A DNA stretch of 64,000 bases, from positions 1 to 64,000 of the forward strand of contig JAJFJV010000006.1 of the NCBI GenBank assembly GCA_021773635.1, read 5' to 3'. Made by a program: the position numbers and the translations under genes. Numbering within the stretch: the first letter of the stretch is position 1; the number at the start of each line of letters is the position of its first letter. The DNA is from Gammaproteobacteria bacterium (GTDB taxonomy: Bacteria > Pseudomonadota > Gammaproteobacteria > HK1). Positions 1 through 3,772 of this stretch are shown in pieces. Below the pieces are notes generated by a model. That model searched no databases. It was not told where the DNA came from and was given only the letters and a program-made list of their open reading frames with translations.

Positions 1-642
1 ATCTCTAAACCGATAGGCCGTGTACTCAATTCCTCTGTCCGTGTGAAAGATCATCCCTTTTTCTGGTTCTCTTCCCTTTAACGCATGACCCAAGGCATTC
101 AGTGTCAAAGTTACCGTTCGATCATGACTTAATGACCAACCGAGTATCCTCCGACTATAGGCATCCATCACCGTGGCCAAGTAACGCCACTTGCCTGCAA
201 GCTTCAGATAGGTGACATCGGCAACCCATACTTGATTCAGCTTCAACGGGCTCGGTTCTAGCCTCAACAGGTTATCGCCAGCAGCCTTGAAACGCTTCAG
301 GCCAGGCTGACGGCGGGTTACCTGCACCACACGCCCAACTAGCCCACTATCCCGCATCAGGCGCTCGACGCGCTTCTTTCCAATACAATAACCCTTATCC
401 TTCAGCGCTCTATGCACCCGAGGGCTTCCATAGGTACCCCGGCTTTGCTTATGTATCGAAACGATCTCTATGGTTAATGCGGCATCTTCTCTGGACCGCT
501 TTGATTTTGACCGTTTGAGCCAATCATAGTATCCACTGCGTGAGACCTTTAGCCATTCACAAAGATACTTTACTCCGAGTTTCCGGTTTCTCTGGATGAA
601 TCGATATCGTTCTGATGTGCTTCCGCGAGAAACCGTTGCCAC
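1..642 (-). CDS. IS3-family transposase OrfB, DDE integrase core (partial)
   Basis: This is the catalytic transposase half, expressed as an OrfAB fusion by -1 frameshifting. Reading the minus strand from 642 gives an open frame of 214 codons that runs off the window. It contains a segment of the HTH_21 type (CEWLKVSRSGYYDW, then RGTYGSPRVHRAL), followed by the rve integrase core. The first catalytic Asp is in WVADVTYL and the second in FHTDRGIEY. The catalytic Glu lies beyond the window edge. The frame could start at the GTG at 642 or be reached only by frameshifting from orfA. IS3 family membership is secure; the subgroup was not assigned. Confidence 0.9.
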   Translation of the reverse strand, partial: MATVSRGSTSERYRFIQRNRKLGVKYLCEWLKVSRSGYYDWLKRSKSKRSREDAALTIEIVSIHKQSRGTYGSPRVHRALKDKGYCIGKKRVERLMRDSGLVGRVVQVTRRQPGLKRFKAAGDNLLRLEPSPLKLNQVWVADVTYLKLAGKWRYLATVMDAYSRRILGWSLSHDRTVTLTLNALGHALKGREPEKGMIFHTDRGIEYTAYRFRD

Positions 643-935
643 TTTTTTAGGAGATCGTTCTCCTGCGTGAGGCGTGCAACGTCTTTACGTGCTTTTTTGA
701 GTTCATCCAACTCTTTTGTCTCTTGTTTTATGCTGGTGACCTTCTTTCTCTTGTCGGCCACGATCTTGCCTTCCCGATACTCTTTACGCCATCGTGACAG
801 CATGAATGGATGAATATCGAGCGTTGCCGCCACCTCTTTTACTTGAACACCCTCCAGGTGACTTAATAGCACTGCTTTTGCCTTAAATTCTTCCGTGTAT
901 CGCCAGGTCCTTCTTGGTTGATTGTATCTTGGCAT
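570..935 (-). CDS. IS3-family transposase OrfA (HTH_Tnp_1)
   Basis: This 121-residue DNA-binding partner of the transposase has an N-terminal helix-turn-helix (about residues 14-57, around FKAKAVLLSHLEGVQVKEVA and HPFMLSRWRKEY). A coiled-coil leucine-zipper region follows (about 70-105, ending ARLTQENDLLKKW), typical of IS3 OrfA. It overlaps the start of orfB by about 73 bases in the -1 frame, with a slippery heptamer in the overlap. In the family OrfA binds the terminal repeats and the OrfAB fusion transposes. Confidence 0.92.
   Translation of the reverse strand: MPRYNQPRRTWRYTEEFKAKAVLLSHLEGVQVKEVAATLDIHPFMLSRWRKEYREGKIVADKRKKVTSIKQETKELDELKKARKDVARLTQENDLLKKWQRFLAEAHQNDIDSSRETGNSE
642..648 (-). 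promoter_or_regulatory. Programmed -1 frameshift heptamer A-AAA-AAG between orfA and orfB
   Basis: The minus strand reads A AAA AAG with exactly the codon phasing (X XXY YYZ) needed for -1 slippage out of the orfA frame. Shifting here joins OrfA directly to the open orfB frame. This is the standard way IS3 elements make OrfAB; no stimulatory structure was assessed. Confidence 0.8.
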
Positions 936-985
936 CGAACACCCTCCTGTTAGGATTTAGTGTCCGTTTTATCGGGGGATGATCA

Positions 986-1015
986 CGTCCGACTGCATGC
1001 GTTTGTTATGATCAC
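986..1015 (-). other. attC-like half site (inverse core plus left arm) truncated by the IS3 element
   Basis: Directly at the stop codon of the ATPase gene the minus strand reads GTGATCATAAC, then AAACGCATGCAGTCGGACG, and then the IS3 end begins. TCATAAC fits the inverse core (RYYYAAC) loosely at its first base. The following AAACGCATGCAGTCGGAC resembles the left arm of many environmental integron attC sites. The first 11 bases are the exact reverse complement of the cassette start at 2734-2744, as expected because both derive from the junction of one circular cassette. The right half of the attC would lie beyond the IS, outside the window. Confidence 0.6.
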
Positions 1016-2703
1016 GCTTGTATGTCACGAATACGGTTGACTTCAGCAATAAACGGAGCGAAATGCGCAAAATCTACGGGATCATTTCTGGCACTTATAA
1101 ATTCCTCGAAGTCTCGCTTTCTATGCTCATCAAATTGGGAAATTGTTGTGCCATCCGAAAGGGTAGTTGTTTTTATAAAATTGCTGAACAAAGTCTCGGG
1201 GAAAGCGTTTTCAATGCCTTTCTTTGCGAGAGTGTTGCTTGAATTATGGGAGATTGAATAAGGAAAGGTATTGTTTTCCTCGCCTAATGAATGGTTTACG
1301 TCACAATCCCATACAAAGAGAACCTTACTTTGGTGGTTTGTCTTTGAAATGAATTGATAGATAGTTTTGAGTTGATTTTTCCCCGATGCCCCTTCAATAC
1401 CAGAAAGCACTTCTACATCACTAATTCCATTCAATTCCAACGCTTTAGAAATCACACTTGTGTTATAACCTTCAGTTATGATTACCACACCAGATCTAGC
1501 AACTTCATCAAATAATTTAATACCTTGCTCTATAGTTGCAAATCCCTGAGTAAGTATTTCGAGGGCTTCACTTTTAGATTTTTTCTCAATACGATTTTGA
1601 CCTGATTTATTCATAACAAATATAGAGTCCTCAGGTGCTAAAGCAATTGTAGTTGGAGAGTGTGTAACTAAAATAACCTTAACACCCTGCTTTAGGAATA
1701 TATTGCCGATAACTTCAAGCATGTTTTTCATCATTGATGGATGAAGTGAAGCATCAACTTCATCCATCAGTAGTAAATCAGGGAAGTGTAAATCTGCTGA
1801 TGATTTATAAACTGATGCAACCAAAGCCATTAATACCCGTTCTCCCGAAGACAAATGATCAAAATCGATCTCTAAGTTTGGTTTTACGGTATGTATTAAT
1901 TTAAGTTGATAGTCTCCGAACTGGTCGGACCCTTCTGGGGAACTAACTCTATAATCCAGTGTATCGAAGGTGGTTAATATTTCATTTACGAGGTCCCAAG
2001 GTTTTGGGCCATGCAGAGTGATAAATTCTTCCTCGGTTACAGCGTCATAGTTCTTACCATATTTCTCATTCTCGAAATCGTTGACTTGATTCCGTCTAAA
2101 TTTAATGTAGTAATCCCAAAATATTTTCCCCAGTTGATTGGGGAGAAAATTTTTCTTAAATACATAGGGCTTATACAAAGAGACAAAATCATCATGCTCA
2201 ATTTCGTCTATTGAATAAGGTATTTTCTTGGCTAACGACAAAATGCCAGTGGCTTGTTGGTTGTCCTTGATTTTCCTGCCGCTAAAATAGTTCTTAGCCT
2301 TTCTTCTGTATCCTTGTAACTTTTCATTTCGAGTAGCCCAAAAACTTTTTTTCCGATTCCTGCAAGTTTCGGCAATTTCAGAATATGAGTCTCCTAATTC
2401 AGCGCGCCATGATACTGCTTGAGGCTTTATATTTTGTTCGTGGTATTGCCATGCTGATTCCCTTTCGCTGGCGAGTTGATGCGCATTAAATGAAGGTTCT
2501 GTATCTAGTTTGAAATCTTCGTAGTTGAAGGCGACGATGTTGTCGTTTTCAATGCCATCAATAGCCACATTCTTGTTTACGATAGCTTGGATTAAATGAC
2601 TCTTCCCAGATCCATTAACACCAGTCAAAACGACAAAATCGGGAAACTCTACAGTGCTAAAGTCTTCTATTGAAAGATACTGCGATTCATATCTAAGTAG
2701 CAA
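1012..2703 (-). CDS. OLD-like ABC ATPase with TOPRIM-like C-terminal region
   Basis: This 563-residue protein resembles overcoming-lysogenization-defect (OLD) family ATPase-nucleases. Residues 28-35 form a Walker A (GVNGSGKS), 284-288 an ABC signature (LSSGE), 310-315 a Walker B (LLLMDE) followed by a D-loop-like DASLHP, and 347-350 an H-loop (THSP). Between Walker A and signature is a long charged insertion, possibly coiled coil. After the ATPase comes a TOPRIM-like stretch with an acidic residue in VIITEGYNT (about 406-414) and a DxD-type motif in FVWDCDVN (about 463-470). Relatives include nucleases of phage-defence systems, so a defence role is plausible but inferred. The gene is AT-rich, has no partner gene, and sits in a likely integron cassette. 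Confidence 0.75.
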   Translation of the reverse strand: MLLRYESQYLSIEDFSTVEFPDFVVLTGVNGSGKSHLIQAIVNKNVAIDGIENDNIVAFNYEDFKLDTEPSFNAHQLASERESAWQYHEQNIKPQAVSWRAELGDSYSEIAETCRNRKKSFWATRNEKLQGYRRKAKNYFSGRKIKDNQQATGILSLAKKIPYSIDEIEHDDFVSLYKPYVFKKNFLPNQLGKIFWDYYIKFRRNQVNDFENEKYGKNYDAVTEEEFITLHGPKPWDLVNEILTTFDTLDYRVSSPEGSDQFGDYQLKLIHTVKPNLEIDFDHLSSGERVLMALVASVYKSSADLHFPDLLLMDEVDASLHPSMMKNMLEVIGNIFLKQGVKVILVTHSPTTIALAPEDSIFVMNKSGQNRIEKKSKSEALEILTQGFATIEQGIKLFDEVARSGVVIITEGYNTSVISKALELNGISDVEVLSGIEGASGKNQLKTIYQFISKTNHQSKVLFVWDCDVNHSLGEENNTFPYSISHNSSNTLAKKGIENAFPETLFSNFIKTTTLSDGTTISQFDEHRKRDFEEFISARNDPVDFAHFAPFIAEVNRIRDIQA

Positions 2704-2733
2704 AATATTCGTCTCCGTGAATAAAACTGGTTA

Positions 2734-2746
2734 GTGATCATAACAA
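2734..2746 (-). other. Cassette 5' boundary / core-like site, arm of a 13-bp inverted repeat
   Basis: The minus strand reads TTGTTATGATCAC here, the exact reverse complement of the minus-strand sequence at 1015-1003 (13 of 13 bases). It contains GTTATGA, close to the integron core GTTRRRY; recombination would fall after the G at 2744. It lies 31 bases upstream of the ATPase start codon. An ordinary inverted repeat of unknown origin is the alternative. Confidence 0.5.
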
Positions 2747-2754
2747 TGAATATA

Positions 2755-2900
2755 CGGATCTGCATAAGATGCCAAAATCCGTGGCGGGTCCGCATATGAT
2801 GCTACATGGATGTCCTGCATTCTTCTAAAAGTAACCGTGAATTAAGGAGTTAGCACGCCACGCCTGCATTTTGGTGATTTTAAGCGGATCCGCATAAGAC
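2755..2900 (+). repeat. Three direct copies of a CGGATCCGCATAAGA-like repeat
   Basis: Copies begin at 2755 (CGGATCTGCATAAGATG), 2785 (CGGGTCCGCATATGATG) and 2885 (CGGATCCGCATAAGACA). The start-to-start distances are 30 and 100 bases, close to whole helical turns. They fill much of the 235-base gap between the accessory ATPase gene and the core gene at 2939. They could be binding sites for a recombinase or regulator at a cassette/attI junction, or the end repeats of a lost mobile element. No other feature was seen in this gap. Confidence 0.6.
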
Positions 2901-2938
2901 ATTCCCCCTTTGCTGCTCATCTCTACATATTCCCGCTA

Positions 2939-3772
2939 TCAACCATCCGGCTGCGTAATTTTTTCCACCGCGACGACCCAGGGCTCGTAACGCTTGCCAT
3001 AAGCCAGGGTTGCACTAAAGCGTGGTGGTTGATTATGGCGATTACGCCCACGCCCAACAGGCTTTAATTTGTCAAAGATCTCACGGTGGGCTAGAGGAAT
3101 ATTGATATGTCGCACCGACAAACCGGACAGGCGACCCTGGACACTCCACGTACCATCCTTGCTCCGCCTCGTGACCGCCTTTACCAGTCCGCGCGCAATC
3201 AGGTATTGCGTCTTATCCGGGTAGCGCCGTCTCAGTGAGCTGTAATCAGTTCCCACATCCACCATAAACAGGCGTGATTTTGCGGTGCGCTCCGTCATCA
3301 AGTTCTTCTTCACGCGCTCGGCCTCGCGAAGGAGTTTCTGGCTGTCCGGATTACGTCTAGCGAGGCCCTGCTTTTTCGCGTAGAGCGCCTTCTGTTTGGC
3401 CAGTTTCCGGCGCCAGGCCGGGCCATCCTGCTCCAACACCACGAAGGCCTCACGCGGCAGGCGGCGTAGCTGGCGTCTCGATTCCGATGTCGCCACAGTA
3501 CCGATGGCCGGAAAACCCAGTTCCACGAGCTTTTCCTTTCCCAGCCAACCTGGTGAATGATCGCTTCTGACCCGGATGCGCAGGCTGATGCCACTGTTTT
3601 CCCGATTAAGGCCCCAGCGATAAGGCATGCTCAGTTCACGCTCGGTGAGGCTAATGATGTCTGCCACCTCGGCAGAACGATTCCAGGCGACACTGCCCAG
3701 GGCAACGGCATTGGTGAGCAGGATGATTGCCAGACCCGCCATCCAGGTATGGCTACGCGACCAGGCGATCAT
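2939..3772 (-). CDS. DUF4824-like (GDYXXLXY) protein, membrane-anchored
   Basis: Function is not known. The 277-residue protein has one N-terminal membrane segment (about residues 10-30, TWMAGLAIILLTNAVALGSVAW) and then a basic, soluble domain. The stretch DVGTDYSSLRRRYPDKTQYL (about 173-192) resembles the GDYxxLxY signature of the DUF4824 family. Its start overlaps the stop of the upstream DUF2157 gene by 4 bases, so the two are translationally coupled and probably act together in the inner membrane. The downstream neighbour is the accessory region, so this is the last core gene on this side. Confidence 0.6.
   Translation of the reverse strand: MIAWSRSHTWMAGLAIILLTNAVALGSVAWNRSAEVADIISLTERELSMPYRWGLNRENSGISLRIRVRSDHSPGWLGKEKLVELGFPAIGTVATSESRRQLRRLPREAFVVLEQDGPAWRRKLAKQKALYAKKQGLARRNPDSQKLLREAERVKKNLMTERTAKSRLFMVDVGTDYSSLRRRYPDKTQYLIARGLVKAVTRRSKDGTWSVQGRLSGLSVRHINIPLAHREIFDKLKPVGRGRNRHNQPPRFSATLAYGKRYEPWVVAVEKITQPDG

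Follow-up and report, generated by a model that had tools for sequence, protein, structure and literature searches.

What brought a single AT-rich ATPase gene to lie between the arms of a perfect 13-bp inverted repeat, directly beside the end of an IS3-family insertion sequence (IS)? The gene stands near the left end of a 64,000-nucleotide stretch of DNA (G000:C42:1-64000, hereafter the window) from a draft gammaproteobacterial genome, possibly metagenome-assembled, which comprises 2.55 Mb in 46 contigs and is 99.6% complete; base 1 of the window is a contig end and falls inside the IS. An earlier note on this DNA had proposed that the gene is an integron cassette whose recombination site, attC, was split by the IS. 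The analyses described below make it highly probable that this is a genuine cassette, captured outside the main integron of the genome by an integrase acting in trans at a site borne on a dispersed repeat, and that an IS3-family element specialized on attC sites subsequently inserted into its attC.

On the minus strand, the inverted repeat reads TTGTTATGATCAC at 2746-2734 and GTGATCATAACAA at 1015-1003, exactly as the earlier note had described. Since the window contains 24 comparable 13-bp pairs with arms less than 3 kb apart, the repeat by itself means little, and it is the placement of its arms that counts. In integron cassettes, the first bases past the crossover G^TT pair with the inverse core of the attC site. 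This pairing accounts for 10 of the 13 bp (TTATGATCAC/GTGATCATAA), a complementarity within the range of 7-11 bp displayed by nine cassettes on another contig of the genome. The proposal that the repeat obeys the cassette rule consequently holds for these 10 bp and fails for the outer three, whose match is coincidental, with the outer TTG supplied by an upstream repeat and the CAA by attC. The ATPase gene, which is indeed AT-rich (37% GC versus about 60%), starts with TTG at 2703, 30 bases from the first arm and with GGAG 8 nt before it, and its TGA stop codon (1014-1012) lies inside the second arm. That arm continues into AAACGCATGCAGTCGGACG and is followed at 985 by the IS end TGATCATCCCCC. 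The sequence after the stop codon can be read directly as the left half of an attC site (CATAACAAACGCATGCAGTCGGACG, 1010-986), consisting of an R'' core TCATAAC (1011-1005), a spacer, and L'' GCATGCAGTCGG (1000-989); the ACG that follows L'' (988-986) would be expected to represent a 3-bp target duplication.

A single gene bounded by a perfect 13-bp repeat is also what a small transposon with terminal inverted repeats of that length would present. No transposase lies within it, an attC left half follows the arm, each of the other genes checked beside copies of the upstream repeat in this genome is terminated by attC, and at the same point a genome of the same genus (G002) carries another gene, bounded by an 11-bp repeat of its own; a transposon of this kind is thus very improbable.

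The absence of intI from the window was correctly recorded in the earlier note; the same genome does, however, encode a complete integron integrase on contig C9 (C9:281730-282674; TIGR02249/integrase_gron, 452 bits, cut-off 265), with about nine cassettes to the left of the gene, all on the minus strand. The attI site of this array ends CCACATAAATCCTG^TTATG, and this attI sequence recurs ahead of the first cassette in two same-genus genomes (G001 and G002). The first cassette of the main array (L017:8601-9413, C9) contains a gene for a 270-aa product that matches neither Pfam nor PADLOC profiles. When 15 attC sites from contigs C9, C11, and C42 were aligned with their terminal loops trimmed, 79.6% of cells were paired and covariation was 0.461, as compared to 27-42% and 0.06-0.17 in slid-strand controls, part of this pairing advantage stemming from the choice of arms by eye. 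A covariance model built from the genome's own attC sites detected 18 sites in that genome at E<=0.01, some outside the training set, as well as eight in the closed genome G050 and four each in G001 and G002. The Rfam model RF04225 was the wrong choice for attC and proved uninformative. Together, the match between cassette start and inverse core, the attC left half, the genomic intI, and a differing cassette in a relative support the assignment of the ATPase gene to an integron cassette.

Little sequence is conserved among attC sites beyond their cores, and what is known of them concerns chiefly their folded form as a substrate of IntI. A preference of an IS for such sites would be expected to appear as independent copies inserted at one constant position within differing attC sites, and this is the pattern directly observed among the left ends of 14 IS copies from six genomes, the window copy included (the IS of Flammeovirga and Flavobacterium, L126-L128, lie outside this sample). 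Specifically, TAAC precedes the IS left end by exactly 19 or 20 nt in 12 of the 14 junctions, against a background rate of 0.4% for this motif at one or the other spacing (binomial tail 1.8e-27), and the other two show TAAT or CATAAG at about the same position, as if decayed. All 14 copies share one orientation, with the transposase reading along with the cassette genes, and 13 have G at -5. The flanks of the 14 junctions differ, which indicates separate insertions. The insertion point falls just past L'', at the start of the hairpin terminal loop. Of eight copies examined at both ends, seven are followed by an attC right half with a GTT core, and in five of these seven a complementary L' is present; attC right halves likewise flank more distantly related IS in G030 and G041. 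Duplications of 3 bp were read at the right flanks of five copies (L117, ATC; L133, ATG; L109, GGC; L123, CGC; L115, AAT). These data suggest that the window IS belongs to a small family that targets attC at a fixed position and in a fixed orientation, a property that had been missed in the earlier note.

Two alternatives bear on this pattern. Insertion by chance, with cassette arrays serving merely as safe landing places, would accord with the common occurrence of IS in such arrays and with the integron of Vibrio cholerae, whose cassettes harbor two IS3 copies, one of them, according to the source, within a coding sequence (PMC11023631). Against it stand the constancy of position and orientation throughout the sample and the finding that all six copies of the IS found in G050, spread over 3.4 Mb, adjoin attC left halves, and we give chance very little weight. 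It is also conceivable that the IS recognizes stem-loops in general, such as terminators or palindromes resembling repetitive extragenic palindromic (REP) sequences, attC simply being the commonest hairpin at hand. Relatives within the IS3 family (IS1397, ISKpn1, ISPsy8) insert into REP palindromes (PMC1525189), and group IIC-attC introns accept terminators as well (PMC7923331). The TAAC core, however, lies outside the L stem and keeps its distance in 12 of 14 junctions, and no IS copy was found at a terminator; general stem-loop recognition is therefore rather unlikely, and we infer that the IS recognizes attC as such, either double-stranded or folded.

Several observations nonetheless weigh against specialization on attC as the explanation for this locus. 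Neither the right attC half nor the right IS end of the window copy is present at any of the 92 contig ends of the genome, and its split attC and target duplication are therefore read from its relatives. A test in which left and right arms were swapped among seven complete copies was suggestive only (348 of 5040 permutations were as good; P about 0.07), and the arms of L115 and of the second G382 copy (L138/L141) pair poorly, these two possibly being recombinants. In the Cocleimonas copy no attC right half can be recognized, a ninth copy (G050 1802k) lacks a duplication, and six of the 14 junctions come from a single genome.

The assignment of the element itself to the IS3 family is drawn from its two reading frames, an OrfA with HTH_Tnp_1 and an overlapping OrfB in another frame with an rve domain (NF033516, 198.7 bits, cut-off 160). 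As the earlier note had it, the IS ends directly after the attC arm, and the copies in other genomes terminate at the base homologous to 985. The termini of these relatives are related, and 3-bp duplications accompany five of them; the window copy has no right end. No further copy of the window IS was found in its own genome. G050 contains six copies with 72% DNA identity, same-genus G002 retains ends only, mostly at contig breaks, and Candidatus Thiodiazotropha (L123) carries a copy with an OrfB that is 85% identical, together with a second, diverged copy. Further close relatives of the IS occur in one Cocleimonas and one Hahellaceae metagenome-assembled genome. In a class-wide hidden Markov model search, close relatives of OrfB were restricted to G000 and G050; plasmid relatives are less than 45% identical, and none were detected in viral contigs. 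An element of about 275-282 bp (GGGAGTCGCTATTTTTGCG...ATGGCGGTCAGCG) interrupts four of the six G050 copies in either orientation, one of them twice (L109, L117, L133/L160, L161, L165); these are nested insertions similar to miniature inverted-repeat transposable elements (MITEs).

On its 5' side, the cassette adjoins a repeat of about 180 bp (2744-2921), which occurs in four copies in the genome: in the window and at C42:161372-161553, C11:364864-365026, and C11:359343-359459. The latter three are 77-81% alike to that of the window, and two copies are mutually inverted around cassettes on contig C11. All four terminate at ATTG^T and border cassettes that differ from copy to copy; the start of the cassette at C11:365k shows one mismatch (TCATGCC for TTATGCC). 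The orthologous locus of G002 shares the flank gene and the repeat but has a different cassette, which carries a YaaC-like gene and an 11-bp match between start and inverse core (TTATACCTAAA/TTTAGGTATAA). The repeat is not an attI site in the usual sense: no intI adjoins it, and it differs from the genome's own attI. The simplest reading, overlooked in the earlier note, is that the 5' side of the cassette is a fixed, repeated capture site, neither attI nor attC, on which IntI acts in trans. Alternatively, the repeat may be a transposable or MITE-like element that spread along with the cassettes, a possibility that its dispersal, its sequence similarity, and the inverted pair on C11 keep well in play; MITEs have also been reported next to integrons. 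That every copy stops at the crossover base and then gives way to a different cassette, and that the orthologous site keeps repeat and flank while the cassette differs, both speak against it, and on balance we think it somewhat doubtful. For at least one other solitary attC of the genome (C11:271k), the cassette start has no such repeat, so the repeat is not the sole exit from the main array. More tentatively, these copies could be dispersed attI-like sites, defined by a repeat with palindromic motifs of the TATGCGGATCCG type and a crossover at TTG^T and served by an integrase encoded elsewhere. In that case the integron of this lineage would be a distributed one, a single integrase supplying several landing pads, and an attC-dedicated IS3 family would prey on it.

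Three further observations concern the repeat and its surroundings. In the copy at C11:359343-359459 (L006), a few tens of bp are missing between two CGGATCCG motifs, resembling a direct-repeat deletion. The region between the two inverted copies (G000:C11:350000-369900, L007) holds cassettes and attC sites with no nearby integrase, in the manner of a cluster of attC sites lacking an integron integrase (CALIN). A sigma-70 scan revealed no promoter in the repeat region, and the conserved TATATT beside the crossover, considered as a -10 box, is accordingly unsupported.

The sequence of events favored here would begin when the IntI of the genome, acting in trans, captured the ATPase cassette at TTG^TT, the site carried by the repeat. 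At a later step, an attC-specialized IS3-family element would have entered the attC of the cassette, its transposase inserting one way round, 19-20 nt 3' of the AAC of R'' and past L'', and duplicating 3 bp. Such an insertion would add about 1.26 kb to the hairpin loop and part the R''/L'' half from the L'/R' half. The cassette would then probably be frozen with respect to its own attC, as the earlier note had suggested, while mobilization together with the next cassette, as one composite unit that includes the IS, would still be possible.

The gene so affected encodes a 563-aa protein that matches Pfam AAA_21 (4.5e-18) and, as its best PADLOC profile, ATPase-Toprim_I-B (1.3e-24), its C-terminal part matching RT-Toprim_I-C (5.8e-5). 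These profiles suggest that the protein is probably an OLD-like ATPase with a C-terminal Toprim domain, with a likely role in phage defence. The nearest homologue found elsewhere (L146, 42% identity) lies outside any cassette and has neighbour genes where arm and repeat would be, which indicates that arm and repeat belong to the cassette rather than to the gene. Plasmid homologues are 25-36% identical, and viral contigs yielded no match to the ATPase. Between attC sites of the second C11 array, a TIR-domain gene (L007:5556-6497; TIR_2, 9.2e-14; ThsB-like by PADLOC) is a probable further defence cassette.

Table 1. Coordinates of features at the left end of the window.
Feature	Position	Strand	Basis or remark
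IS3-family element, partial	1..985	-	left terminus TGATCATCCCCCGATAAAACGGACAC at 985; contig end at 1; ~270 bp missing
orfB, rve/DDE core	1..642	-	214 aa present; C-terminus beyond contig
orfA, 121 aa, HTH_Tnp_1	570..935	-	profile match
Left half of cassette attC	986..1011	-	sequence; layout as in the 14 IS junctions and the genome's attC sites
Visible part of integron cassette	986..2743	-	10-bp start/inverse-core complementarity; crossover G^TT between 2744 and 2743
Cassette gene, 563-aa AAA_21/OLD-like ATPase	1012..2703	-	Pfam and PADLOC profiles
Dispersed repeat ending GTATATTCATTG^TT	2744..2921	-	4 copies in G000; 1 at orthologous G002 locus
Chromosomal flank gene	2939..3772	-	same gene at same place in same-genus genome

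If the interpretation is correct, insertions of this type would immobilize cassettes and join adjacent ones into larger mobile units, and the element itself could serve to examine whether a DDE transposase recognizes the hairpin in its folded state. The capture site on the repeat would be informative about how cassettes become established away from the main array. No report of an IS3-family element targeting attC was found, which is weak evidence given that the search covered open-access literature only, without ISfinder. Cassettes away from the intI-linked array, at sites other than attI, are likewise known from attG sites and CALINs (PMC12901181, PMC12444791); attG sites are described as dispersed and diverged in sequence, whereas here one repeat of about 180 bp is used four times with the crossover always at its end. 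With respect to the IS, specificity for palindromic sites is shared with IS1397, ISKpn1, and ISPsy8 of the same family (PMC1525189), although these target REP sequences rather than attC. Targeting of integron cassette attC sites is established for IS1111-type elements of the IS110/IS1111 family, such as ISKpn4 and ISPst6 (PMC11187229). While that group relies on a DEDD transposase, the window IS has an IS3-type OrfA and OrfB with rve (NF033516), inserts beside L'', and is associated with 3-bp duplications. Group IIC-attC introns are similarly mobile elements specialized on attC, but they are retroelements that insert at R'' (TTGT/T) against the direction of cassette transcription (PMC7923331), whereas the window IS encodes a DDE transposase in place of a reverse transcriptase and inserts beyond L'' in the same direction as the cassette genes. 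An IS3-family DDE transposase would thus constitute, if the proposal holds, a third attC-targeting transposition chemistry alongside those of IS1111-type elements and group II introns.
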